This document shows, one piece after another, positions 22,576 through 35,488 of a DNA stretch of 35,627 bases. The notes beneath the pieces were generated by a model. The model ran no database searches. It was given only the letters and a program-made list of their open reading frames with translations, and was not told where the DNA came from. Both the position numbers and the translations under genes were made by a program. Within the stretch, counting starts at the first letter, position 1, and each line of letters begins with the position of its first letter. Origin of the DNA: Acetobacteraceae bacterium. GTDB taxonomy: Bacteria; Pseudomonadota; Alphaproteobacteria; Acetobacterales; Acetobacteraceae. The DNA lies in NCBI GenBank assembly GCA_019750475.1, contig JAIEOO010000213.1:1-35627 (forward strand), read 5' to 3'.

Positions 22576-23403
22576 CGGACGGTTCCGCTTCAGCAGGGCC
22601 CGGGCGCGGTCCACCACGGGCTTGTCGATCATCTGCCCTTCGAAGGCGACGGCGCCGAGCCCCTGGGCGAGGGCGGCGTCGAAGGCGGCGACCATCCGCT
22701 CGGCCCGCGCGACATCCTCCGGGCGCGGGCCGTATTCCTCGTTGATGATCGGCACCTGGGAGGGATGCACGCAGGAGGCGCAGGCGAAGCCCAAGGCGCG
22801 GGAGCGCCGCAGCATGGCGCGATAGCCGTCGAGGTCCGACAGGCCCGCCACCGTCCCGATGAAGCCGAGGGGCAGGATGCCCGCCGCCCGCGACGCCAGC
22901 ACGCTCATGCGCTTCGGCCATTCGAGCGCGTCGGGCGTCGCTTCGGCGCCGAGGTCGGTCGCCAGATCCTCGCCGCCCACGCCGAGCGCCACGATGCGCG
23001 GATGCGAAGCGGCGATGGCGTGGAGGTGCGGCAGTGCGGCCGCGTCCTCGACCAGCGGGACCAGCTTCGCCTCCCCGGTCAGCTCCGCGAGCAGGCGCAC
23101 ATGGTCCGGGCCCATGATCTTCGTCAGCACGAAGCCGTCGGCGCCCGCGGCGCGCCCGGCCGCGATGTCGGCGACCGCCATGTCGAGCGGGCGGTTGATC
23201 CGCACCAGCACGTCGGCGCCGCCCGCGCGCACGCGGGGCACGGCGGCGGCGAGGGCCGCGCGCGCTTCGGCCTTGCGGGCGGGGGGAATGCTGTCCTCGC
23301 AATCGAGGATGATGGCGTCGGCGGCGCGCGCGGCGGCCTTGGCGACGAAGCGCTCCTCGATGACCGGGACGTAGAGGAGGGAACGCCAGAGGGGCAGGCT
23401 CAC
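22567..23403 (-). CDS. CitE-like HpcH/HpaI aldolase/CoA ester lyase
   Basis: The 278-residue TIM-barrel lyase belongs to the citrate lyase beta subunit/malyl-CoA lyase family. Visible motifs: RSLLYVPVIEERFVAKAA, LDCEDSIPPARKAEAR with its acidic pair, DVLVRIN with the conserved Arg, a Mg-binding Glu in LVPLVEDAAAL, GVGGEDLATDLG, and C-terminal CVHPSQVPIINEEY. Such enzymes cleave or form 3-hydroxy-dicarboxyl-CoA thioesters. No other citrate lyase subunits are present, so a stand-alone CoA-ester lyase is likely; the substrate is not readable. It starts on GTG overlapping the upstream deacetylase-family stop (GTGA), so it is cotranslated with those genes. Confidence 0.9.
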   Translation of the reverse strand: MSLPLWRSLLYVPVIEERFVAKAAARAADAIILDCEDSIPPARKAEARAALAAAVPRVRAGGADVLVRINRPLDMAVADIAAGRAAGADGFVLTKIMGPDHVRLLAELTGEAKLVPLVEDAAALPHLHAIAASHPRIVALGVGGEDLATDLGAEATPDALEWPKRMSVLASRAAGILPLGFIGTVAGLSDLDGYRAMLRRSRALGFACASCVHPSQVPIINEEYGPRPEDVARAERMVAAFDAALAQGLGAVAFEGQMIDKPVVDRARALLKRNRPAT

Positions 23404-24287
23404 GACGGCGGATGCTCCTTCACCCAGTGGCGCGCGATGTCGATGCGGCGGCAGACCCAGAGCTGCGGCTGCGTCTTCACCCAGTCGAGCAGCCGCGCGA
23501 GGCCGGCGGCGCGGCCGGGCTGGCCGATGATGCGGGGATGGAGGCCCACGCTCAGCATCCGCCCGCCCGGCTCGGAGAGCATCAGCTCGACGGCCTGGCG
23601 GATATACGCGAAGAACTCCTCGCCCGTGGTGATGCCCTGGCGGGCGAAGCGGACGTCGTTGTGCGCGAGGTTGTAGGGCACCACGAGGTGCGGCTGGCCG
23701 TGGACGGGCTTCCAGTAGGGCAGCTCGTCGTCATAGGCGTCGCTGTCGTAGAGGTAGCCGAGCTCGACCAGCAGGCGCCGCGTGTTCTCGCTGGGCGCGT
23801 AGCGGCAATACCAGCCCTGCGGGCGCTCGCCCGTCGCGGTCTCGATGATGCGGGTGGCGTCGGCCAGGCGCTGGCGCTCCGTCGCCTCGGGCATGCCGGC
23901 GTGCAGCTCCCATTTGTAGCCGTGGCCCGCGGCGTCCCAGCCGGCCTCGCGGATCGCCTCGCCGTAGAGGGGCACGCGCTCCAGCGCGCGGGCCACGGCG
24001 AAGGCGGTGCAGGGGATGCCGCGCTCGGTGAAGAGGCGATGCAGGCGCCAGAAGCCCACGCGCGCCCCGAAGCCGAACATGCTCTCGGCGCCGAGGTCGC
24101 GGCCCTTGGGGAGCGCGGTGCTGCCCTCGGTCAACCCGGCCTCGCTGTGCGGATCCCCGTCGTCGAAGGAGGCCTCGCCCCCTTCCTCGACGTTGATGAC
24201 GAAGTTGAGGGCGAGCCTGGCGCCCCCCGGCCAGCGCGGATCGGGCGGGTTGCGGCCGTAGCCGATGAAGTCGCGGGTGGTCGGCAT
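23400..24287 (-). CDS. Polysaccharide-deacetylase-fold protein, allantoinase PuuE-like
   Basis: The 295-residue protein starts RDFIGYGRNPPDPRWPGGARLAL and continues VINVEEGGEASFDDGD, AAGHGYKWELH, GWYCRYAPSENTRRLL, YDSDAYDDELPYW and MLSVGLHPRIIGQPGRA. This strongly resembles the PuuE group, polysaccharide-deacetylase-fold enzymes whose characterised Pseudomonas member is a metal-independent allantoinase that opens the hydantoin ring of allantoin. The N-E-E-G stretch where classical deacetylases have an Asp-Asp pair supports this. Allantoin as the real substrate is an inference. The start ATG at 24287 overlaps the upstream paralog's stop by one base (TGATG), and the end overlaps the CitE-like gene. 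Confidence 0.85.
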   Translation of the reverse strand: MPTTRDFIGYGRNPPDPRWPGGARLALNFVINVEEGGEASFDDGDPHSEAGLTEGSTALPKGRDLGAESMFGFGARVGFWRLHRLFTERGIPCTAFAVARALERVPLYGEAIREAGWDAAGHGYKWELHAGMPEATERQRLADATRIIETATGERPQGWYCRYAPSENTRRLLVELGYLYDSDAYDDELPYWKPVHGQPHLVVPYNLAHNDVRFARQGITTGEEFFAYIRQAVELMLSEPGGRMLSVGLHPRIIGQPGRAAGLARLLDWVKTQPQLWVCRRIDIARHWVKEHPPS

Positions 24288-25204
24288 CACGCGGGCTCCG
24301 AGCCCGGGACGATGCCGGGCAGCAGGGTGGAGACGAAGTCGGCGAGGTCGCCGGGACGGGTGATCCAGAGATCGGCCCGGCGTTCGAGAAGGCGCCGCAG
24401 CGCCTCGCGGAGAGGCCGGAGGCGGTGCGGCTGCCCCAGGATGAAGGGATGCAGCACGATGCTCATGACGAGCGGCCGCTTCTCGGACTGCGCCAGCAAC
24501 TCGCAAAACTGGTCGTCGATCATCTCGGCGAATTCGCGGCCGGTGTGGTGGCGCATGACGAGGGCGGGGCTGTCGTTCAGCTCGACGGAATAGGGGACGG
24601 AAAGGATGGGGCCGGCGCGGGTCGTCATCCAGAAGGGCTGGTCGTCCGCCGGCCAGTCCATGACGTAGGTGAAGCCCGCTTCCTTCAGCAGGTCGAGCGT
24701 CACGGCCGATTGCGCGATGTAGGGCCCGAGCCAGCCGCGTGGCGCGCGCCCCGCATGCTGCGCCAGGATGTCGCGGCTCTCGAGGATCAGCCGGCGTTCA
24801 TCCTCTTCCCACAGGATGTCCTGCCGTTCGGAATTGGTGCGGCCATGGCCGATGAACTCGTCGCCGCGGGCACGGAGCGCCGGGCCGATCTCCGGGCATT
24901 CCTCGAGCGCGGCGGAGTTGATGTTGTGGGCCGAGGGGATGTCCAGCTCGTCGAGCAGGTCGAGCAGGTTCCAGAGGCCGACGCGGTTGCCGTAGTCGCG
25001 CCAGGCATAGGCGCGTTGATTCTGGACGGGTGCCGGGCCCGTGACATCCGAGCCGATGCCGGCCCGGTAGGCGAAGTGCTCGATGTTGTTGACGACGAGG
25101 AGCGCGAGCCGCTTGCCGCCCGGCCACTCATAGGTCGGGCGCTGCGGGATGGCGGAATGGGCGTAGCGGCGATGGGCGGGGAGCCGGATCGGTGGGAGCG
25201 TCAT
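24287..25204 (-). CDS. Polysaccharide deacetylase family protein (PuuE-related paralog)
   Basis: The 305-residue protein has the same fold as its neighbour but is clearly divergent: YEWPGGKRLALLVVNNIEHFAYRAG, RDYGNRVGLWNLLDLLDEL, FIGHGRTNSERQDILWEEDER, GWLGPYIAQSAVTLDLLKEAGFTYVMDWPADDQP, ELNDSPALVMRHHTG and SIVLHPFILGQPHRLRPL. The Asn-Asn-Ile-Glu in place of the usual metal-binding Asp pair, and the shared GHG and HPFI/HPRI-GQP motifs, place it with ring-opening amidohydrolase-like members rather than chitin deacetylases. The ATG at 25204 was chosen because the longer track start runs through repeats. It begins the three-gene unit whose promoter must lie in 25205-25460. Confidence 0.85.
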   Translation of the reverse strand: MTLPPIRLPAHRRYAHSAIPQRPTYEWPGGKRLALLVVNNIEHFAYRAGIGSDVTGPAPVQNQRAYAWRDYGNRVGLWNLLDLLDELDIPSAHNINSAALEECPEIGPALRARGDEFIGHGRTNSERQDILWEEDERRLILESRDILAQHAGRAPRGWLGPYIAQSAVTLDLLKEAGFTYVMDWPADDQPFWMTTRAGPILSVPYSVELNDSPALVMRHHTGREFAEMIDDQFCELLAQSEKRPLVMSIVLHPFILGQPHRLRPLREALRRLLERRADLWITRPGDLADFVSTLLPGIVPGSEPA

Positions 25205-25264
25205 CGGCGCCGAGCGTGCCACGGCGCCCGCGAGGAGGCCAACAGGCGACGCGACGATGGCCCC

Positions 25265-25440
25265 CTCACCCTCACCCGTATTCGGTCCCGCTGGCACCCG
25301 GAGCGCCAGGCATCCAGGCTCCGCCGCGGTGACCCCAAGCGGCTCCGATCCCAGGACCAGGCTCCTCACCGCATTCGGACGCGCAGGCGCTCCACGCACC
25401 CTGCATCCAGGGCGCGCTCCGGTGCCCCGAAGCGGCTCCG
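25265..25440. repeat. Two imperfect tandem copies of an extragenic repeat, period about 93 bp
   Basis: Copy 1 (about 25265-25347) and copy 2 (about 25358-25440) share, at matching offsets of 93 bases, the blocks CTCACCC(G)xATTCGG, GCATCCAGG and CCCC(G)AAGCGGCTCCG. The copies differ by substitutions and small indels. They contain no gene and lie between two operons on the same strand. Confidence 0.65.
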
Positions 25441-25464
25441 CCGCGAGGGCGGAGCCTCAGCGCA

Positions 25465-25498
25465 AGAAAAAGGGCAGCGACCGCGAAGGACGCTGCCC
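25465..25498 (-). terminator. Rho-independent terminator of the liv operon
   Basis: On the minus strand GGGCAGCG and CGCTGCCC form a perfect 8-bp stem with an 11-base loop, immediately followed by TTTTTCTTG. This is the best textbook terminator in the window and lies about 94 bases past the livM stop. Confidence 0.88.
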
Positions 25499-25531
25499 AA
25501 CCCGACAACCAGCGAAACCCCCAACCGGGAC

Positions 25532-25590
25532 CCCCGGCGAGATTTCCGCGCAACGCAGCGAAGCGAAGTGGAGCGGAAATCTCGGCGGGG
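25532..25590. repeat. Long inverted repeat directly after livM
   Basis: Bases 25538-25549 pair perfectly with 25573-25584 (core GAGATTTCCGC/GCGGAAATCTC), and after one mismatch five more pairs extend the stem (25532-25536 with 25586-25590). The loop is 23 bases. It begins one base past the livM stop codon and probably protects or ends the transcript. Confidence 0.75.
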
Positions 25591-25591
25591 A

Positions 25592-26578
25592 TCAGAGCCT
25601 GACGCGGAGCCAGTTCCCGATCTCGCCCACGATGCCGCGCCGGAAGGCGAGCACGCAGAGGACGAAGATGGCGCCCTGGATCACCGTCACCCACGCGCCG
25701 AACTCCGCCAGGTAGTTCTGCATCGTGATGATGACCGCCGCCCCCACGACGGGGCCGAAGATCGTGCCGAGGCCGCCGACGAGCGACATCAGCACCACCT
25801 CGCCCGACATGGTCCAGAACACGTCCGTCAGCGTCGCGATGCCGAACACGATGGACTTGGTGCCGCCCGCGACGCCGGCGAGCGTCGCCGAGAGGACGAA
25901 GGCCATCAGCTTGTAGTCATCGGTGCGGTAGCCGAGCGAGGTCGCGCGCGGCTCGTTCTCGCGGATGGATTTCAGCACCATGCCGAAGGGCGAGTGGACG
26001 ATGCGGTGGATCAGCAGGAAGCCGATCAGGAACACGCCCGCCGTCGTCCAGTACATCGCCATGTCGTTGCCGAGCGGGATGGCGCCGAACAGGCTGCCGC
26101 GCGGGATGGCCTGGATGCCGTCCTCGCCGCCGGTGAAGGGCGCCTGGAGGCAGAAGAAGTAGACCATCTGCGCGAGGGCGAGGGTGATCATCGCGAAGTA
26201 GATGCCCTGCCGCCGGATGGCGATCCACCCGAAGACGAGGCCGAGCAACCCGCCCACGGCGCCGCCGATCAGGATCGCGATCTCGGGCGTGAAGCCCCAG
26301 ACCTTGGCCGCGTGGCCCGCGAGGTAGCCGCCCATGCCGAAGTAAGCGGCGTGTCCGAAGGAGAGCAGGCCGACATAGCCGATGAGCAGGTTGAAGGCGC
26401 AGGCGAAGAGCGCGAAGCACAGCACCTTCATCAGGAAGACGGGGTAGAGGAAGAAGGGCGCCACCACGAAGAAGGCCACCATCACCCCGAAGGCGAGAAG
26501 CTGGCTCTTGGTGAAGCCGAGGACGACCTCGTCCTCGTGCTTGAAGTCGGTGCCGCCGAAACCGCCGGGAGCCGCCAT
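25592..26578 (-). CDS. livM: Branched-chain amino acid-type ABC transporter permease LivM
   Basis: The 328-residue membrane protein of the LIV-type (HAAT family) importer has the family landmarks NLLIGYVGLLSFGHAAYFGMGGYLAG, GQGIYFAMITLALAQM-like text (RRQGIYFAMITLALAQMVYF), MVLKSIRENEPRATSLGY and a closing GTIFGPVVGAAVIITMQNYL. About ten hydrophobic segments are visible. With LivH it forms the translocation path; LivG and LivF supply ATP hydrolysis. It starts three bases after the livH stop and is the last gene of the operon, followed by a hairpin and terminator. The transported solute depends on the three binding proteins upstream and need not be an amino acid. Confidence 0.95.
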   Translation of the reverse strand: MAAPGGFGGTDFKHEDEVVLGFTKSQLLAFGVMVAFFVVAPFFLYPVFLMKVLCFALFACAFNLLIGYVGLLSFGHAAYFGMGGYLAGHAAKVWGFTPEIAILIGGAVGGLLGLVFGWIAIRRQGIYFAMITLALAQMVYFFCLQAPFTGGEDGIQAIPRGSLFGAIPLGNDMAMYWTTAGVFLIGFLLIHRIVHSPFGMVLKSIRENEPRATSLGYRTDDYKLMAFVLSATLAGVAGGTKSIVFGIATLTDVFWTMSGEVVLMSLVGGLGTIFGPVVGAAVIITMQNYLAEFGAWVTVIQGAIFVLCVLAFRRGIVGEIGNWLRVRL

Positions 26579-26581
26579 CGG

Positions 26582-27466
26582 TCAGGCCCTCCCGAACAGG
26601 CCGGCCGGCCGCGTGAGCAGCACGATGGCCATGACGACGAAGATCACGGTGGCGGAGGCTTCCGGCCAGAACACCTTGGTCAATCCCTCGATGATGCCGA
26701 GGCCGAAGCCGGTGACCACGGAGCCGAGGATGGACCCCATGCCGCCGATCACGACCACGGCGAAGACGATGATGATGAGGTTCGCCCCCATCTGCGGGTT
26801 CACGGAGTAGATGGGCGCGGCCAGCACGCCGGCGAAGGCGGCGAGCGCCACGCCCGCGCCGTAGGTCAGCGTCATCATCAGCGGCACGTTGATGCCGAAG
26901 GCCTGGACGAGGGCCGGGTTCTCCGTCGCCGCGCGCAGGTAGGAGCCGATCTTGGTCTTCTCGATCACGAGCCAGGTGGCGAGGCAGGCGACGATGGCCA
27001 CGACGACGACCCAGCCGCGGTAGATCGGCATGAACATGAAGCCCAGGTCCCAGGAGCCCTGGAGCTCCGCCGGGATGCGGTAGGGCAGGCCGGAGGAGCC
27101 GAACTCGTTGCGGACAAGGCCCTCCACGATCAGCCCGACGCCGAAGGTCAGCAGCAGCCCGTAGAGGTGATCGAGCTTGTACAATCGGCTGATCATCGTT
27201 CGTTCGAGCAGCACGCCGAAGGCGCCGACGATGAGCGGCGCCAGCAGCAGCGCCCACCAGTAGCCGAGGCCGAGGAAGCTGAGCAGCGCCCAGGCCACGA
27301 AGGCGCCCAGCATGAACTGGGCGCCGTGGGTGAAGTTGATGACGTTGAGCATGCCGAAGATCACGGCCAGCCCGAGCGAGAGCAGCGCGTAGAAGGCCCC
27401 GTTGATGAGGCCGAGCAGTAGCTGCCCGAAGAGCAGCGGCGCGGGTATGCCGAAGATCTCGTCCAT
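26582..27466 (-). CDS. livH: Branched-chain amino acid-type ABC transporter permease LivH
   Basis: The 294-residue permease carries the LivH hallmarks: LLLGLINGAFYALLSLGLAVIFGMLNVINFTHGAQFMLGAF near the N-terminus, LLTFGVGLIVEGLVRNEFG, ATENPALVQAFGINVPLMM and VVVIGGMGSILGSVVTGFGLG. It pairs with LivM in the inner membrane. It sits 15 bases after the first binding-protein gene and 3 bases before livM, so it is cotranscribed with both. Confidence 0.95.
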   Translation of the reverse strand: MDEIFGIPAPLLFGQLLLGLINGAFYALLSLGLAVIFGMLNVINFTHGAQFMLGAFVAWALLSFLGLGYWWALLLAPLIVGAFGVLLERTMISRLYKLDHLYGLLLTFGVGLIVEGLVRNEFGSSGLPYRIPAELQGSWDLGFMFMPIYRGWVVVVAIVACLATWLVIEKTKIGSYLRAATENPALVQAFGINVPLMMTLTYGAGVALAAFAGVLAAPIYSVNPQMGANLIIIVFAVVVIGGMGSILGSVVTGFGLGIIEGLTKVFWPEASATVIFVVMAIVLLTRPAGLFGRA

Positions 27467-27481: not shown

Positions 27482-28738
27482 TTATGTCCTGACGAGCGGG
27501 CAGCCGCCCTCGGCCAGCGGACGCCAGGCGTCCTCGGCGGAGGTGGTGGCGGCCACGCGATAGTAGTCCCAGGTGCCGGAGCTCTCGCGCGGCCCCTTCA
27601 CCTGGAAGAGATAGACGGGGTGCAGCTTGCGGCCATCGGCGCGGATGCTGCCGGCGCCGAAGGCGTCGTCGTCGGTCGGCATGGCCTTCATGCGGGCGAC
27701 GGCGGCCCGGCCATCGGCCTTGGCGGCGGCGACGCCCATGTCGGCCACGGCCTTGAGGTAGTGCAGCGTCGCGCCGTAGCACCCGGCCTGCACCATGGCG
27801 GGCGGGCGGTTCTGGTTGAGCGGCCGGACGCGGGTGGAGAGGCGGCGCGTGCGGTCGTTGAGGTCCCAGTAGAAGCTCTCGGTCAGCAGCAGGCCCTCGG
27901 CCTCCGCGAGGCCGAGCGCGTGCACGTCGACGAGGCCCATGAGCAGGGCGGCGAAGCGCATCGAACGGTGCAGGCCGAACTCCCGCGCCGCCTTGATGGA
28001 GTTCACGGTATCGAGCGAGGCGTTGGCGAAGCCCAGCACCTGCGCGCGCGACGCCTGGGCCTGCACGACGAAGGAGGAGAAGTCGGTCGTCTGCGGGAAG
28101 GGATAGCGGGCGGCGCCGACGACGCGGCCGCCGGCCGCCTCGACGAAGCGGGACACGTCGCGCTGCAGCGCGTGGCCGAAGGCGTAGTCGGCGGTGATGA
28201 AGAACCAGCTCTGCCCGCCGGTGCGGACGATGGCGTCACCCGTGCCCTTGGCGAGCATGTAGGTGTCGTAGGTCCAGTGCACGGTATTGGGCGAGCATTG
28301 CGGCCCCGTCAGGTCGGAGGACGCGGCGCCCGAATTGAGGAACACCTTGTTGCGCTCGCGCGCGATGGTGTTGACGGCGAAGGCGACGGAGGAGGTGGGC
28401 ACGTCCACGATGGCGTCCACGCCCTGGTCGTACCATTGCCGCGCGATGGTGGAGCCGACATCGGGCCGGTTCTGGTGGTCGGCCTGGATGACCTCGACGT
28501 TGAAGCCGCGCCCGGCGAATTCCTGCGCCGCGAGCTGGGTGCAGACGACAGAGCCGGGGCCCGTGGCATCGCGGTAGGGCCCGGACATGTCCGACAGCAC
28601 GCCGATGCGGATGGTGTTCGCCGCTTGCGCACGCGCGCCGGTCAGCGGCAGCGCGGAGAACGCGCCGGCGGTGAGGGCGGCCGCGCCGCCGATGAGGGTC
28701 CTGCGACCCGGACCCGTCGTCACATGGGCCGTCGTCAT
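27482..28738 (-). CDS. LIV-type ABC transporter substrate-binding protein, paralog 1
   Basis: The 418-residue periplasmic binding protein has a twin-Arg type signal (GPGRRTLIGGAAALTAGAFSA, cleavage near ARAQA). Its two-lobe type I binding fold shows NTIRIGVLSDMSGPYRD, ADHQNRPDVGSTIARQWYDQ, QCSPNTVHWTYDTYMLAKG, WFFITADYAFGHALQ, LTESFYWDLNDRTRR and LHYLKAVADMG. It is similar along its whole length to the next two genes, so the three arose by tandem duplication. It is the most divergent of the three in its middle (MGLVDVHALGLAEAEGLLL) and C-terminal linker. It is the nearest to livH. Ligand unknown. Confidence 0.95.
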   Translation of the reverse strand: MTTAHVTTGPGRRTLIGGAAALTAGAFSALPLTGARAQAANTIRIGVLSDMSGPYRDATGPGSVVCTQLAAQEFAGRGFNVEVIQADHQNRPDVGSTIARQWYDQGVDAIVDVPTSSVAFAVNTIARERNKVFLNSGAASSDLTGPQCSPNTVHWTYDTYMLAKGTGDAIVRTGGQSWFFITADYAFGHALQRDVSRFVEAAGGRVVGAARYPFPQTTDFSSFVVQAQASRAQVLGFANASLDTVNSIKAAREFGLHRSMRFAALLMGLVDVHALGLAEAEGLLLTESFYWDLNDRTRRLSTRVRPLNQNRPPAMVQAGCYGATLHYLKAVADMGVAAAKADGRAAVARMKAMPTDDDAFGAGSIRADGRKLHPVYLFQVKGPRESSGTWDYYRVAATTSAEDAWRPLAEGGCPLVRT

Positions 28739-28786
28739 GGATGCGTTTCCTTCCTGCCTGCGGTTTCGTCGTTGTTCCCCCGGCAG

Positions 28787-28825
28787 GCCGGGCGGCCTCG
28801 CGTCTTCGGCTGTTGGCCGCCCGGC
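28787..28825. other. Intercistronic hairpin between SBP paralogs 2 and 1
   Basis: GCCGGGCGGCC (28787-28797) and GGCCGCCCGGC (28815-28825) form a perfect 11-bp stem with a 17-base loop inside the 112-base gap. There is no U-tract on the minus strand, so it is more likely an mRNA-stabilising or partially attenuating structure than a full terminator. Confidence 0.7.
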
Positions 28826-28850
28826 TGCATCGTCTCCCCCGCTCCTTGCC

Positions 28851-30095
28851 TCAGCTGCGACCGATGGCGCAGCCGCCCTCGGCGGCCGGGCGGAACGCCT
28901 GGTCGGCGGGGATGGTGGCGATCAGCTTGTAGTAGTCCCAGGCCCCGCGGCTCTCGTTCGGGGCCTTCACCTCGAACAGGTAGGCCGGGTGGACCTTCCG
29001 CCCGTCGGGGCGGATGGTGCCCTGGCCGAAGGCGTCGTCATTGGCCGGCATGGCCTTCATGCGGTTCACCGCCTCGGCCCCCGAGGCCTTGGCCGCCGCG
29101 ACGCCCATGTCGCCCACGGCCTTCAGGTAGTGCAGCACCGCGGAGTAGCAGCCGGCCTGCACCATGGAGGGGCGCAGCCCGCCCGGCGTCTGGCCGAGGC
29201 GCTGGGTGAAGGCGCGGGTGCGGTCGTTCAGGTCCCAGTAGAAGCTCTCGGTGACGACGAGGCCCTGCGCCGTCTGCAGCCCGAGGCTGTGGACGTCGGT
29301 GACGAAGACGAGGAGACCGGCGAGCTTCACGCCGCGCCGCGTCAGCCCGAACTCGGCCGCCTGCTTGATGCTGTTGATCGTGTCGCCGCCCGCATTGGCG
29401 AGGCCGATGACCTTCGCGCGGCTGGCCTGCGCCTGCACCAGGAAGGAGGAGAAGTCGGTCGTGCCCGGGAAGGGGGTGCGGACGGAGCCCAGGACCCGCC
29501 CGCCGGCGCGGCGGACGAATTCGGAGGTGTCCCGCTCGAGCGCGTGGCCGAAGGCGTAGTCCGCCGTGATGAAGAACCAGGTGTCGCCGCCCGCGCGCAC
29601 CATCGCGCCGCCGGTGCCGTTGGCGAGCATGTAGGTGTCGTAGGTCCAGTGGACCGTGTTGGGCGAGCACTGGGCCCCGGTCAGGTCCGAGGTGGCCGCG
29701 CCCGAGTTCAGGAAGACCTTGTTGCGCTCGCGCACGACGGTGTTGACGGCGAGCGCCACCGAGGAGGTGGGCACGTCCACGATCACGTCCACGCCGTCGC
29801 GGTCGAGCCATTGCCGCGCGACGGTCGAGCCGACATCGGGCCGGTTCTGGTGGTCGGCCTGCACGACCTCCACGTTGATGCCGCGCTGGGTGATGCCGCT
29901 CTCCTGCACGGCGAGGCGCACCGCGTGGGTGGAGCCGGGGCCGGAGATGTCGCGGTACAGGCCCGACTGGTCGTTCAGCACGCCGATGCGGATGGTGTTC
30001 GCGGCCTGGGCCCGGGCGGAGCGGTAGGGCAGCGCGCCCCAGACGGGAGCGGTCGCGGCGGCACCGAGAAGGGTGCGGCGGGTTGTCTCGGTCAT
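28851..30095 (-). CDS. LIV-type ABC transporter substrate-binding protein, paralog 2
   Basis: The 414-residue binding protein has a twin-Arg signal (TTRRTLLGAAATAPVWGAL, cleavage near ARAQA) and a mature domain parallel to its neighbours: NTIRIGVLNDQSGLYRDISGPGS, QADHQNRPDVGSTVARQWLDRDGVDVIVDVP, QCSPNTVHWTYDTYMLANG, WFFITADYAFGHALERD and TESFYWDLNDRTRAF. One difference is the first-lobe loop (LAVQESGITQRGINVE), where the others have an aromatic Phe-Gly or Phe-Ala-Gly turn, perhaps altering ligand choice. The start at 30095 has a strong GGAAGGAAAG ribosome site; the longer track start is not needed. Confidence 0.95.
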   Translation of the reverse strand: MTETTRRTLLGAAATAPVWGALPYRSARAQAANTIRIGVLNDQSGLYRDISGPGSTHAVRLAVQESGITQRGINVEVVQADHQNRPDVGSTVARQWLDRDGVDVIVDVPTSSVALAVNTVVRERNKVFLNSGAATSDLTGAQCSPNTVHWTYDTYMLANGTGGAMVRAGGDTWFFITADYAFGHALERDTSEFVRRAGGRVLGSVRTPFPGTTDFSSFLVQAQASRAKVIGLANAGGDTINSIKQAAEFGLTRRGVKLAGLLVFVTDVHSLGLQTAQGLVVTESFYWDLNDRTRAFTQRLGQTPGGLRPSMVQAGCYSAVLHYLKAVGDMGVAAAKASGAEAVNRMKAMPANDDAFGQGTIRPDGRKVHPAYLFEVKAPNESRGAWDYYKLIATIPADQAFRPAAEGGCAIGRS

Positions 30096-30125
30096 GGACT
30101 TTCCTTCCCTTTCGAGTTGCGAAGA

Positions 30126-30162
30126 CCGGGCGGGGGCGGTCTTGGTGCCGTCTCCCGCCCGG
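30126..30162. other. Intercistronic hairpin between SBP paralogs 3 and 2
   Basis: CCGGGCGGG (30126-30134) and CCCGCCCGG (30154-30162) form a perfect 9-bp stem with a 19-base loop in the 87-base gap. Its stem resembles that in the next gap, and both gaps also share a GGAAGGAAA-type ribosome site, consistent with duplication of gene plus leader. Confidence 0.7.
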
Positions 30163-30182
30163 AACACTCCCGGCCGTCGAGA

Positions 30183-31427
30183 TCAGGTGCGCACGAGGGG
30201 ACAGTTGCCCTGCGCCATCGGGCGGAAGGCCTCCTCGGGCGAGGTGGTCTGCAGCAGCGTGTAGAAGTCCCAGGGGCCGCGGCTTTCCTGCGGCGTCTTC
30301 ACCTGGAACAGGTAGGCCGGGTGCAGCTTGCGCCCGTCGGGGCGGATGGAGCCCTGGCCGAAGGCATCGTCATCCGTGGGCATCGCCTTCATGCGCTCGA
30401 TCACGGCGCGGCCATCGGCCTTCGCCGCCGCGGCGCCCATGTCCGCGACCGCCTTGAGGTAGTGGAGCGTGGCCGAGTAGCAGCCGGCATGGCCCATCGA
30501 GGGACGGTTGCCGCCGGGCGAGCCATTGGCCAGGACGCGCTGGGTGACGGCGCGGGTGCGGTCGTTGAGGTCCCAGTAGAAGGTCTCGGTCAGGACCGAG
30601 CCGCCGGCCGTCTGGAGCCCGAGGCTGTTCACGTCGTTCACGAAGACCAGCAGGCCGGCGACGCGCTGGCCGCGGCGCATCAGGCCGAACTCGCCCGCCT
30701 GCTTGATGGCGTTGATCGCGTCCACGCCCGCATTGGCGATGCCGACGATCTGGGCGCGCGAGGCCTGGGCCTGCAGCAGGAAGGAGGAGTAGTCGGTCGT
30801 GCCCGGGAAGGGGTGACGGACGCTGCCGACCACGGTGCCGCCAGCCGAGCGGACGAATTCCATCGTCTGCGCCTCGAGGCTGTGGCCGAACGCGTAGTCC
30901 GCGGTGATGAAGAACCAGCGCTGGCCGCCGGCACGCACGAGCGCCGCGCCGGTCGAGCGCGCCAGCATCCAGGTGTCATAGGTCCAGTGGATGGTGTTGG
31001 GCGAGCACTGCGCGCCGGTCAGCTCGACCGTGGCGGCCGTGCTGTTGAGGTAGACCTTGTTGCGTTCGCGCATGACGGTGTTGACCGCGAGCGCCACGCC
31101 CGAGGAGGGCACGTCCACCACCATGTCGACGCCGTCCCGGTCGATCCATTGGCGGACGAGGTTCACGCCCACGTCGGGGCGGTTCTGGTGGTCGGCCACC
31201 AGCACCTCGACGTTGAAGCCGCGGCTGCCGAAATCCTGCACGGCCGTGCGCGTGGCGACGACCGAGGTCGGCCCGGAGATGTCGCGGAAGGGCCCGGACA
31301 TGTCGGTCAGCACGCCGATGCGGATGGTGTTGGCCGCGCCCTGGGCGCGGGCGTGCGTCATCGGCGTGGCGGCGCCGAGCGCGATGGCGCCCGTCGCGGA
31401 GAGGAAGTTACGGCGGCTCGATTCCAT
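30183..31427 (-). CDS. LIV-type ABC transporter substrate-binding protein, paralog 3
   Basis: The 414-residue binding protein has a twin-Arg signal (ESSRRNFLSATGAIALGAA, cleavage near ARAQG). The mature domain shows NTIRIGVLTDMSGPFRDISGPTS, VADHQNRPDVGVNLVRQWIDRDGVDMVVDVPSSG, LTGAQCSPNTIHWTYDTWMLARS, WFFITADYAFGHSLEAQ, TETFYWDLNDRTRAV and AGCYSATLHYLKAVADMG. Signature blocks match paralogs 1 and 2, but it has its own variants around the ligand cleft (SGVALAVNTVMRERNKVYLNS). It is first of the three, 30 bases after livF with no hairpin in between. It probably feeds the same LivHMGF transporter. Confidence 0.95.
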   Translation of the reverse strand: MESSRRNFLSATGAIALGAATPMTHARAQGAANTIRIGVLTDMSGPFRDISGPTSVVATRTAVQDFGSRGFNVEVLVADHQNRPDVGVNLVRQWIDRDGVDMVVDVPSSGVALAVNTVMRERNKVYLNSTAATVELTGAQCSPNTIHWTYDTWMLARSTGAALVRAGGQRWFFITADYAFGHSLEAQTMEFVRSAGGTVVGSVRHPFPGTTDYSSFLLQAQASRAQIVGIANAGVDAINAIKQAGEFGLMRRGQRVAGLLVFVNDVNSLGLQTAGGSVLTETFYWDLNDRTRAVTQRVLANGSPGGNRPSMGHAGCYSATLHYLKAVADMGAAAAKADGRAVIERMKAMPTDDDAFGQGSIRPDGRKLHPAYLFQVKTPQESRGPWDFYTLLQTTSPEEAFRPMAQGNCPLVRT

Positions 31428-31457: not shown

Positions 31458-32162
31458 TCAGACGCCCAGATATTCGTGCAGGCGCTCAAGCGAGGCGTTG
31501 AGGTCCTCGTTGCGGACCATGTCCACCACGCGCCCGTGCTCCATCACGTAGTGGCGGTCGGCCACCGTCTGGGCGAAGCGGAAATTCTGCTCGACGAGCA
31601 GCACCGTGAAGCCGCGCGCCTTCAGCTCGCGGATGGTGCGGCCGATCTGCTGCACGATGACGGGGGCAAGGCCCTCCGACGGCTCGTCGAGGAGGAGGAG
31701 CTTGGCGCCCGTGCGCAGGATGCGCCCGATAGCGAGCATCTGCTGCTCGCCGCCCGAGAGCTTGGTTCCGGGGGAGCGCGCGCGCTCCTTGAGGTTCGGG
31801 AAGAGGGTGTGGATCTCGGCGACCGACAGCCCACCCTCGGCGATGGCGGGCGGCAGCATCAGGTTCTCGGTCACGTCGAGGGAGGCGAAGATGCCGCGCT
31901 CCTCGGGGCAGTAGCCGATGCCGGCGCGCGCCACGAGGTCGGAGCGCAGGCCGATCGTCTCCTGCCCGCGATACCGGATGGAGCCCGAGCGGCGGCCGGT
32001 GAGGCCCATGATCGCGCGAAGCGTCGAGGTCTTGCCGGCGCCGTTGCGGCCGAGCAGCGTGACGACCTCGCCTTCGTGGATGTCGATGGAGACGCCGTGG
32101 AGGACGTGGCTCTCGCCGTACCAGGCCTCGAGGCCCTTCACCTGCAGCAGCGGCTCAGACAT
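31458..32162 (-). CDS. livF: Branched-chain amino acid-type ABC transporter ATP-binding protein LivF
   Basis: The 234-residue ATPase has Walker A GRNGAGKTS, signature LSGGEQQMLAIGRIL and Walker B LLLLDEPSEGLAP, followed by a switch His-equivalent region (VLLVEQNFRFA). The text LLQVKGLEAWYGESHVLHGVSIDI and EERGIFASLDVTENL is typical of LivF. The ATG at 32162 has GGGAGG at good spacing and overlaps the livG stop by eight bases; the track's GTG at 32171 is too close to that site. It works with LivG to power LivHM. Confidence 0.95.
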   Translation of the reverse strand: MSEPLLQVKGLEAWYGESHVLHGVSIDIHEGEVVTLLGRNGAGKTSTLRAIMGLTGRRSGSIRYRGQETIGLRSDLVARAGIGYCPEERGIFASLDVTENLMLPPAIAEGGLSVAEIHTLFPNLKERARSPGTKLSGGEQQMLAIGRILRTGAKLLLLDEPSEGLAPVIVQQIGRTIRELKARGFTVLLVEQNFRFAQTVADRHYVMEHGRVVDMVRNEDLNASLERLHEYLGV

Positions 32163-32976
32163 GCGCGGCACCTCCCTCGGGGCGCTGCTGGCTCGCGGCG
32201 AGGGCTGCCTCCGGCACGCCGACGCTCGCGGGGTCGGTGCCGAGATAGGCGGCCTGGACCTCCGGGTTGCGGGAGACGGTGCCGTAGTCGCCCTCGGCCA
32301 GCACCTGGCCGCGCGTCAGCACCGTGATGGTGTCGCACAGGCCCTCGACGACCTTCAGGTTGTGCTCGACGAGGAGGACGGTGCGGCCGGCGGCGACGCG
32401 CCGGACGAGGGTGACGATGCGGTCCACGTCCTCATGCGTCATGCCGGCCGTGGGCTCGTCGAGCAGCATCATGGTCGGGTTCATGGCGAGCGTCGTTGCG
32501 ATCTCGAGCGCGCGCTTGCGGCCATATGGCAGCTGCCCGGCCGGGAGCTTCGCGTATTCCGTCAGCCCGACATCCTCGAGCAGCGCCATCGCCTGGGCGT
32601 CGTACTGCCGCAGCAACGACTCGGCCCGCCAGAAATCGAAGCTGCCGCCGCGCTGCCGCTGGAGGGCCATGCGCACGTTCTCGAGCACCGAGAGATGCGG
32701 GAAGACGGCCGAGATCTGGAAGGACCGCACGAGGCCGAGCCGCGCGACCTCAGCCGGCTTCATCGCCGTGATGTCGCGCCCGTCGTAGCGGATGGTTCCG
32801 CGGGTCACCGGCAGGAACTTGGTCAGCAGGTTGAAGCAGGTGGTCTTGCCCGCGCCGTTCGGGCCGATCAGGCCGTGGATCGTGCCGCGGCGCACCTTCA
32901 GGTTCACGTCCTGGACCGCGACGAAGCCGCGGAACTCCTTCGTCATGCCCTGGGTTTCCAGGATGATGTCGCTCAC
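32155..32976 (-). CDS. livG: Branched-chain amino acid-type ABC transporter ATP-binding protein LivG
   Basis: The 273-residue ATPase shows ILETQGMTKEFRGFVAVQDVNLKV, Walker A GPNGAGKTT, a LivG-type signature LPYGRKRALEIATTLA and Walker B MMLLDEPTAGMTHED, then VLLVEHNLKVVEGLCD. The C-terminus has a short extra tail (VGVPEAALAASQQRPEGG). The start was set at GTG 32976 (SDIILETQ) by similarity, with AGGGAG upstream; an in-frame ATG at 33033 would add 19 residues of low likeness. It is the first liv gene, 104 bases downstream of xdhB. A weak TTGCAA box in that gap hints at an internal promoter, otherwise the whole set is cotranscribed with xdhAB. Confidence 0.93.
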   Translation of the reverse strand: MSDIILETQGMTKEFRGFVAVQDVNLKVRRGTIHGLIGPNGAGKTTCFNLLTKFLPVTRGTIRYDGRDITAMKPAEVARLGLVRSFQISAVFPHLSVLENVRMALQRQRGGSFDFWRAESLLRQYDAQAMALLEDVGLTEYAKLPAGQLPYGRKRALEIATTLAMNPTMMLLDEPTAGMTHEDVDRIVTLVRRVAAGRTVLLVEHNLKVVEGLCDTITVLTRGQVLAEGDYGTVSRNPEVQAAYLGTDPASVGVPEAALAASQQRPEGGAAHV

Positions 32977-33080: not shown

Positions 33081-35381
33081 TCACCTGCCGCGAGGCTTTG
33101 TTTCTCGCGCGGAAAGCAAGCTCAAAAGCCGCTCCGGCGTCGCCGGCAGGTCCATGGCTGGCATGCCAGCGGCATCCCTCAGGGCATTGACAACCGCGGT
33201 CGCCAGGAGCAGCGGCGGCTCCCCCACGGCCTTGGACCGGAAGATGGTCGCGGCCCGCGCCGGTGCCCCCTTCAGCAGCCGCGCGCGGAAGATGGGCGGC
33301 ACGTCGCGCGAGCCCGGGATCTTGTAGGTGGATGGGCCGAGCGTCCGCAGGCGCCCCTCCCGGTCCCACCATAGCTCCTCCGAGGTGAGCCAGCCCATGC
33401 CCTGGACAAAGGCGCCCTCGATCTGACCGAGGTCGATCGCCGGGTTCAGGCTGCGGCCGCAATCCTGCACGAGATGCGCCGACAGCACCCGGTGCTCGCC
33501 CGTCAGCGTGTCGAGCGCGACCTCCGCCACGGCGGCGCCGTAACTGAAGTAGAAGAAGGGCTCCCCGCGCATCGCCTGGGCATCCCAGTGGATGTCGGGC
33601 GTCCTGTAGAAGCCCGTCGCCGAGAGGCTGACGCGCGCCTTCCAGCAGAGCTTCGCGAGATCGCCGAAGGCGAGCCGCGCATTGCTCCCCGGCTTGGGGG
33701 ACAGGACGTATCCGTCCTCGAAGCGGACCTCCTCCGCCGCGCAGCCGAGATGCTGGGCCGCGACCTGCGCCATGCGGTCGCGCACCGCGCTGGCCGCGGC
33801 ATGCGCCGCCCAGCCATTGAGGTCGCTGCCCGTGCTGGCGGCGGTCGCGCTCGTGTTCGGCACCTCGGCCGTGGAGGTGGCGGAGATGCCCACCTGCTCG
33901 ACGGGGATGCCGAACACCTCGGCCACCACCTGCGCGACCTTGATGAAGAGGCCCTGGCCCATCTCCGTGCCGCCATGCGCGAGGCGCACCGTCCCGTCGG
34001 TGTAGACATGCACCAGCGCGCCGGCCTGGTTGAGATGCGGGATGCCGAAGGAGATGCCGAAGGCGCAGAGGAAGTCGCCGAGGCCGCGGCGGATCGTCGG
34101 ATGCGTCGTGTTGAAGGCGTCGATCTCGGCCCGCTTCGCCTCCCACCCGGCGTCGCGCCGGGCTTCGGCGTAGACCCGGCGCGCCAGCTCGGGCTCGATC
34201 GCCTGGCCGTAGGGCGTGCGGTCCGCGAGGTTGGCGAGGCGCAGCTCCTCCACCGGCCGGCCGAGATGGGCGGCGATGCGCGCCAGCACGTCCTCCATCA
34301 GCAGCGCGCCTTGCGGGCCGCCGAAGCCGCGGAAGGCGGTGTTGCTGACCGTGTTGGTCTTCACCGCGCAGGCGGTGATGGTCGCGTCCGGAACGGCGTA
34401 GCAGTTGAGCGCGTGGGTCGCGGCGCGGAACACGACGCCGCCCGACATGTCCACCGAATGCCCGCCATCGGCGGCGAGCAGCGCGTCGAGGGCGATGAGC
34501 TTGCCGGATGCGTCGAAGCCGGCACGCCAGCGATAGAGGAAGGGGTGGCGCTTGCCGGTCGCCGCCATGTCGGCGCGGCGGGAGAGGCGAATCTTCACCG
34601 GCTTGCCCGTCAGCCGCGCGGCGACGGCGGCGGCGGCGGCCACCCAGCTCGCATTGCTCTCCTTGCCGCCGAAGGCGCCGCCCATGCGGCGGCAGGTGAC
34701 GGTGACGCGGTGATAGGGCACGCCGAGGACGCGCGCGACGACGTGCTGCCCCTCGGTCGGGTGCTGCGTCGAGGAGTGGACGCGCATCTCCCCGTCCTCG
34801 CCCGTCTCGGCGAGGGCGATCTGGCCTTCGAGGTAGAAATGCTCCTGCCCGCCGGCGCGGAACTCGCCCGCGAGCGTCATCGGTGCGCGGGCGAGCGCGG
34901 CCGCCGCATCGCCCTCGCGGATGACCTGCGGCGGGATGATCCAGGCGCCCCGCGCGAGCCCCTCCTCGATCGAGAGAACCGCGGGCAGGGGCTCGATCTC
35001 GGGTTCGGCGGCGAGGGCGCAGCGCAGCGCCTCGTCGCGCGTGCGGGCGACGATGATCGCCATGGGCTGGCCCATATGCTCGACGACGCCGTCCGCCAGC
35101 ATCGCCTCGCCGCTGCCGATGGGCGCGATGTCGTTCTCGCCGGGGATGTCGGCGGGGGTGATGATCCGCACGACACCGGGCATGCCGTCCGGGACGTTCA
35201 GCGCGCGGATGCGCCCATGGGCCAGGGGTGAGAGCACCAGGGCCGCGTGCAGCGTGCCCGCAGGCTCCGGCAGGTCGTCGAGGAAGCGCGCCTCGCCGGT
35301 CGCGTGCTTGAGCGCGCTGTCATGGCGCATGGCCTGCCCGGCCATGCGGAGATCCCGCGGGGGCGGCGCAGCATCCATCAT
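33081..35381 (-). CDS. xdhB: Xanthine dehydrogenase molybdopterin-binding subunit
   Basis: The large molybdenum subunit (about 766 residues) hydroxylates purines or related heterocycles. N-terminal domain: HATGEARFLDDLPEPAGTLHAALVLS. Moco region: RMGGAFGGKESN with the Glu typical of xanthine enzymes, NTAFRGFGGPQGALLMED with the conserved substrate Arg, GGTEMGQGLFIKVAQVVAE, and the catalytic Glu in SKAVGEPPLLLATAV. Having these three residues together favours true xanthine dehydrogenase activity over aldehyde oxidase or CO dehydrogenase. The start is at ATG 35381 or the next ATG, 35378; upstream in-frame ATGs fall in a repeat. It follows xdhA. The usual xdhC does not follow; livG does, and XdhC halves lie 17 kb away. 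Confidence 0.93.
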   Translation of the reverse strand: MMDAAPPPRDLRMAGQAMRHDSALKHATGEARFLDDLPEPAGTLHAALVLSPLAHGRIRALNVPDGMPGVVRIITPADIPGENDIAPIGSGEAMLADGVVEHMGQPMAIIVARTRDEALRCALAAEPEIEPLPAVLSIEEGLARGAWIIPPQVIREGDAAAALARAPMTLAGEFRAGGQEHFYLEGQIALAETGEDGEMRVHSSTQHPTEGQHVVARVLGVPYHRVTVTCRRMGGAFGGKESNASWVAAAAAVAARLTGKPVKIRLSRRADMAATGKRHPFLYRWRAGFDASGKLIALDALLAADGGHSVDMSGGVVFRAATHALNCYAVPDATITACAVKTNTVSNTAFRGFGGPQGALLMEDVLARIAAHLGRPVEELRLANLADRTPYGQAIEPELARRVYAEARRDAGWEAKRAEIDAFNTTHPTIRRGLGDFLCAFGISFGIPHLNQAGALVHVYTDGTVRLAHGGTEMGQGLFIKVAQVVAEVFGIPVEQVGISATSTAEVPNTSATAASTGSDLNGWAAHAAASAVRDRMAQVAAQHLGCAAEEVRFEDGYVLSPKPGSNARLAFGDLAKLCWKARVSLSATGFYRTPDIHWDAQAMRGEPFFYFSYGAAVAEVALDTLTGEHRVLSAHLVQDCGRSLNPAIDLGQIEGAFVQGMGWLTSEELWWDREGRLRTLGPSTYKIPGSRDVPPIFRARLLKGAPARAATIFRSKAVGEPPLLLATAVVNALRDAAGMPAMDLPATPERLLSLLSARETKPRGR

Positions 35382-35488
35382 CCCGCCTCCGATCGCCGGA
35401 GGGCGCATGCCCGGAGGCGTGAATCGGCGGCCCGCCGCGCCTCCGATCGCCGGAGGGCGCATGCCCGGAGGCGTGAATCGGCGGCCAT
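35378..35488 (-). CDS. 36-residue repeat-encoded small ORF bridging xdhA and xdhB
   Basis: The ATG at 35488 overlaps the xdhA stop (TGATG) and the stop at 35378-35380 overlaps the xdhB start (ATGA). The product is almost two copies of one 18-residue unit containing AADSRLRACALRRSEA. The geometry suits translational coupling from xdhA to xdhB. Against a real protein: it is built entirely from a duplicated DNA repeat and uses codons rare here (TCA, GCA, CGA, GGA). It may be translated only as a relay. Confidence 0.4.
   Translation of the reverse strand: MAADSRLRACALRRSEARRAADSRLRACALRRSEAG
35384..35486. repeat. Perfect 49-bp direct repeat, period 54 bp
   Basis: Bases 35384-35432 and 35438-35486 are identical over 49 bases, separated by CGCCG. 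Each copy contains short palindromes (CCTCCG/CGGAGG and GGGC GCAT GCCC). The 54-base period is a multiple of three, so the reading frames across it stay open. Perfect identity suggests a recent duplication of a small extragenic palindromic unit. Confidence 0.95.

Follow-up and report, generated by a model that had tools for sequence, protein, structure and literature searches.

Why does one LIV-type ABC transporter operon carry three full-length binding proteins (SBPs) in tandem, and how did it acquire them? The question is raised by a 35,627-nucleotide stretch of DNA from an Acetobacteraceae bacterium (contig JAIEOO010000213.1 of assembly GCA_019750475.1), which we call the window. In Escherichia coli, LivJ and LivK share one LivHMGF core, and more than one SBP of the Peripla_BP_6/LIV fold, namely two, is likewise present per core. 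However, LivJ and LivK are 77% identical and non-adjacent, with panZ between them, whereas the window has three SBPs, placed in tandem between the ATPases and the permeases, belonging to old subfamilies and varying in kind by species. The window operon would be a further form of LivJ/LivK-type sharing of one core. No description of such multi-SBP arrays was found in the literature searched, the coverage of which was incomplete.

Operon layout and transporter core

The genes run on the minus strand in the order (xdhA)-xdhB-livG-livF-SBP1-SBP2-SBP3-livH-livM, and the open reading frames and Pfam matches confirmed the order livG-livF-SBP-SBP-SBP-livH-livM given by the initial annotation. Upstream of livG lies a Mo-hydroxylase gene of the xanthine-dehydrogenase type (33081..35462, minus strand); its product, an XdhB-like molybdopterin subunit, matches TIGR02965 with 949 bits, above the cut-off of 849.5, and xdhA is split across a contig end in the same genome (C433:35509-35625 and C421:1-1167). 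The core is of the LIV/HAAT type of ABC importer. The ATPases LivG (32155..32976, minus strand; GTG start at about 32976, uncertain) and LivF (31458..32171, minus strand) both contain PF00005, accompanied in LivG by BCA_ABC_TP_C, and are UrtD/LivG-like and UrtE/LivF-like, respectively. The permeases LivH (26582..27466, minus strand; PF02653, 6e-37) and LivM (25592..26578, minus strand; PF02653, 2e-34) are of the BPD_transp_2 kind, and all three SBPs match PF13458.

No equivalog-level match to LivF, LivG, LivH or LivM was obtained, all core proteins scoring below the NCBIfam cut-offs of both the Liv and the Urt models; "branched-chain amino acid" should therefore not be taken as the substrate. 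A firm assignment as a urea (Urt) transporter was rejected on the scores against the cut-offs: 222 versus 285.8 bits for UrtE, 213 versus 304.1 for UrtD, 188 versus 250.3 for UrtB, 139 versus 296.2 for UrtC and at most 43 versus 493 for UrtA.

A second close LivH was not found in the window's genome, where the next best is about 38–39% identical. Given a single core of this kind and the genetic linkage, we infer that the three SBPs share it. One LivG/LivF/LivH/LivM core served by three non-redundant SBPs, each with its own related ligand(s), is the reading that we favor and hold to be probable, though well short of certain. Elsewhere in the genome are two further SBPs of this family (C442, 60%; C186, 52%), orphans that lack an adjacent cognate core and may feed the same LivGFHM core; of their loci (L009:11917-14450 and L010:206-1606), one lies beside TRAP transporter-like genes and a gene for a Beta-lactamase-family protein (PF00144).

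After livM, a terminator-like GC hairpin with a T run was read from the sequence (25467..25498, minus strand). An element of about 190 bp between livM and the next, PuuE-like gene (25400-25591) recurs at dozens of sites in the genome, with 66 matching stretches, the long ones about 70–81% identical, and carries a long inverted repeat (25532-25549/25573-25590) and the terminator-like hairpin. Given this hairpin, livM is probably the last gene of the operon, and the PuuE-like genes are likely to form a separate unit.

Three binding proteins from old subfamilies

SBP1 (30183..31427, minus strand; 414 residues; PF13458, 1e-98), SBP2 (28851..30095, minus strand; 414 residues; PF13458, 3e-100) and SBP3 (27482..28738, minus strand; 418 residues; PF13458, 6e-97) are all intact members of Pfam Peripla_BP_6 (E < 1e-96). 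SBP2 probably starts at the ATG at 30095, the mechanically assigned GTG at 30167 being likely too early. Their pairwise identities are 66–72%, and 66–70% to the first copy over the full length. The initial annotation was right that all three are full-length, share the blocks ADHQNRPDVG, QCSPNT, FFITADYAFGH and FYWDLNDRTR, and have twin-Arg-type signals: read by eye, the N-termini are Tat-compatible, with the Tat-like motifs SRRNFL, TRRTLL and GRRTLI in SBP1, SBP2 and SBP3, respectively, each followed by a cleavage-like ARAQ site. Its view that each copy is undecayed and under selection also agrees with the purifying constraint seen in the dN/dS values against orthologs, mostly 0.13–0.27 with one of 0.37, the dS being compressed by a GC3 of about 0.95. 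The values among the three paralogs (0.45–0.49) were discarded as evidence, since the same GC3 compresses the synonymous sites.

The gap between SBP2 and SBP3 contains a GC-rich hairpin with an 11-bp stem (28787..28825, minus strand; folding z = -2.8 against shuffles), which may protect the mRNA of the upstream SBP. Another GC-rich hairpin lies in the SBP1–SBP2 gap (30126-30162; z = -0.4).

A maximum-likelihood tree assigned SBP1, SBP2 and SBP3 to three separate subfamilies, labeled C, A and Z, respectively. Orthologs in other species reach 92%, 90% and 84% (82–84% for the nearest of SBP3), above the 66–72% found within the array itself. Gene conversion between the copies was rejected, as orthologs beat paralogs in nearly all 50-residue windows; around residues 51–125 of SBP3 the two match almost equally. 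Subfamily Z usually occupies the last SBP position of an array. In Falsiroseomonas and relatives, subfamily A also supplies the sole SBP of single-copy operons, next to the same kind of livGFHM core, indicating that one such SBP suffices; we found no homolog of the copies that serves a different permease. Subfamily C occurs in the window's genus, and orphan SBPs of Belnapia and Dankookia may be its sisters. Within this one genus the SBP sets differ: C-A-Z in the window, and E-A-Z, E-A, E-A-B, A-B-Z, C-B-Z, E-A-B-G, E-C-B-G and A-H-Z in others. By their phylogeny, the window SBPs are members of old subfamilies spanning genera, not recent duplicates.

Comparison of the ligand-binding clefts

The AlphaFold model of SBP2 (pLDDT 91.8) is closest, among solved structures, to BMA2936 (PDB 3i09), with a TM-score of 0.94 at 48% identity, whereas Bxe_C0949 (PDB 3n0w) gave 0.87 at 39%. 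Neither title names a ligand, and a literature search found no paper on 3i09. The same fold is seen in the aromatic-carboxylate SBPs of Rhodopseudomonas palustris (PDB 4ey3, 4evs and 4evq; TM 0.82–0.85, 21–24% identity). Two of these, 4ey3 and 4evs, are the closest structures with a named ligand (22–24%) and give a hint, by analogy, of the ligand class.

The contacts of LivJ with its ligand, which we took as the cleft map, were transferred to the SBPs by profile alignment at about 17% identity. The initial annotation placed most differences between the copies in loops near the presumed ligand cleft. This did not hold: 15 of 48 putative cleft positions (31%) vary among the three SBPs versus 142 of 336 elsewhere (42%; Fisher p = 0.16). 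Columns that are constant within each subfamily yet differ from one subfamily to another showed a weak, non-significant cleft enrichment (odds 2.5, p = 0.10), and the cleft motifs WTYDT, ITADYAFGH, ANA and FYWDLND are kept in almost all subfamilies. Nevertheless, the cleft residues are not identical in the three proteins. Subfamilies A, C and Z have fixed differences at putative cleft positions 13, 17, 80, 82, 102 and 233 (mature SBP2 numbering, used throughout), and the window SBPs additionally differ at 206-207 and 234-236. SBP1 has S80, G82 and T102 against T, S and G in SBP2 and SBP3, whereas SBP3 has S206/L207 and M233/G234/L235 against G/G and V/F/V in SBP2. The idea of one core broadened to related ligands thus retains its single core and a few subfamily-fixed cleft differences and loses the cleft enrichment; the broadening itself is putative. 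It is plausible from these alignments that the pattern reflects related yet distinct ligands with tuned specificity, though one shared ligand might also account for it.

Alternatively, the paralogs might bind the same class of ligand with different affinity or expression, kept for abundance, dosage or condition-specific redundancy. The conserved cleft motifs and the spread of differences over the whole protein agree with this, and the hairpins between the SBP genes could give different mRNA levels. Nevertheless, subfamily-fixed differences do fall at putative ligand-contact positions, and a second copy from any one subfamily is almost never seen in an array, a restriction that dosage would not need. 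We regard this explanation as a possible one of limited probability, and retain the reading of three non-redundant SBPs.

Binding-protein arrays across Acetobacteraceae

The layout livG-livF-(SBP)n-livH-livM is widespread in Acetobacteraceae: 90 of 150 genomes of the family contain a LivH match at E <= 1e-95. From loci found by SBP similarity, the window's genus and 40 LivH-based regions, we collected 94 non-identical arrays of 1–8 SBPs each, and these SBPs belong to about a dozen old subfamilies. Complete arrays hold one SBP in 16 cases, two in 24, three in 21, four in 13, five in 9, six in 1 and eight in 2. In arrays other than the window's, livM is often followed by a DUF1028 gene and by a dipeptide-type ABC transporter (L107:14118-14819 and neighbors). 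Outside Acetobacteraceae, SBPs of this family are mostly scattered single genes, with at least two tandem pairs in 241 genomes across the class, a lower bound given that up to eight candidates were scored per genome at first pass. The striking point is these family-wide arrays of old, nearly non-repeating subfamilies, rather than the triple of the window.

In multi-copy arrays, 234 of 236 copies have their nearest relative in another genome; the other two, one tandem pair in another organism (L084), have it in the same array. The first subfamily labels were picked by hand from the tree, and the test was redone with mechanical tree cuts and the added livH-based sample. At a tree-distance cut of 0.4, one within-array repeat was found versus 13.3 expected from shuffled arrays, a contrast that fades at looser cuts (7 versus 20.8 at 0.5; 48 versus 52.8 at 0.7). 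Two SBPs kept the same relative order in 244 of 250 pairwise comparisons, whereas shuffled arrays gave a mean of 163. Since related arrays are non-independent, both counts serve as description. The pattern needs no more than old duplications, losses and few new duplications, and ligand selection is compatible with it but unneeded: an old array that merely loses genes yields few repeats trivially, so the scarcity of repeats alone is no proof of ligand selection.

The operon and its last SBP tell different histories. In the tree of the core livGFHM genes the window groups with its genus (the Rubritepida/Roseococcus group), whereas SBP3 clusters with Neoroseomonas and a single congener rather than with the last copies of other congeners. 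Forcing the Z copies of the genus together was rejected (delta lnL 84.6, AU p = 6e-8, an optimistic p as the group was chosen after the first tree). This conflict points to an exchange of some copies or to their sorting from hidden paralogs; transfer and hidden paralogy are both possible. A broader proposal is that Acetobacteraceae hold a pool of about 12 LIV-type SBP subfamilies, swapped through slots of fixed order before one conserved permease, the substrate range evolving by exchange of whole cassettes and not by mutation or re-duplication; we put it forward tentatively, as an idea more likely to fail than to stand.

At the other extreme, the triple might be a neutral remnant of an ancestral array that once comprised about ten SBPs and lost genes at random, without function beyond one active SBP. 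The near-fixed order and few repeats fit such an array, and single-SBP operons are viable. We nonetheless judge it unlikely: none of the three copies is broken, their dN/dS against orthologs is low (dS compressed by GC3), and the grouping of SBP3 is unexpected from purely vertical loss of one copy per subfamily. Recent serial duplication in the window's lineage, as the initial annotation had proposed, matches the tandem position, similar length and 66–70% identity of the paralogs, but is scarcely credible, as orthologs in other species and genera reach 82–92%, the trees contradict it with three separate supported clades that cross genera, and just 2 of the 236 copies look recently duplicated.

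Ligand leads and genomic neighbors

Near the operon of most congeners, on the same contig, lies an amidohydrolase gene; the best solved relative of its product is an enamidase that acts in nicotinate fermentation (2vun, E = 1e-97). Genes for an AA_synth (PF06684) protein and the Mo-hydroxylase accompany it. The Eubacterium barkeri enamidase opens a partly reduced pyridine ring (PMC9304392). In some other genera the amidohydrolase and AA_synth genes lie upstream of livG, with a different Mo-hydroxylase gene that is divergent. Such enamidase-like/AA_synth/Mo-hydroxylase sets (L098:1378-4593 and L050:1075-8345) may represent an uncharacterized N-heterocycle pathway. The Mo-hydroxylase beside the window operon and the enamidase-like genes of relatives hint at N-heterocycles as the ligand class. 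For the window strain the relatives' context is a lead at most and was rejected as proof, since the enamidase-like amidohydrolase gene is absent from its genome.

Downstream of the window operon are two adjacent PuuE-like polysaccharide-deacetylase genes (23400-25399), which have diverged from PuuE to different degrees, followed by an HpcH/CitE-like gene. Firm purine or ureide uptake was rejected: at 346 and 114 bits, the deacetylases fall below the allantoinase cut-off of 424.6, no PuuE-like genes were seen next to the operon in the other arrays examined, and those of the window stand behind the dispersed repeat and its terminator-like hairpin.

Proposed transport model

We propose a putative model for the window operon. 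Each SBP would be exported to the periplasm via its Tat-like signal and would catch its own member(s) of a group of small polar compounds that are related to one another, probably carboxylates or N-heterocycles. All three SBPs would then dock on the same LivHM pair, and the ligands would be imported with ATP; the SBP set of an array would thereby set the substrate range of its core. The docking of all three on this core, their different ligands and the ligand class are predictions drawn from gene context and homology.

In summary, if the SBP set decides what the core imports, these arrays would form a natural test set for how SBP specificity diversifies around a single permease, and the diet of these environmental bacteria would be predictable from their SBP composition.
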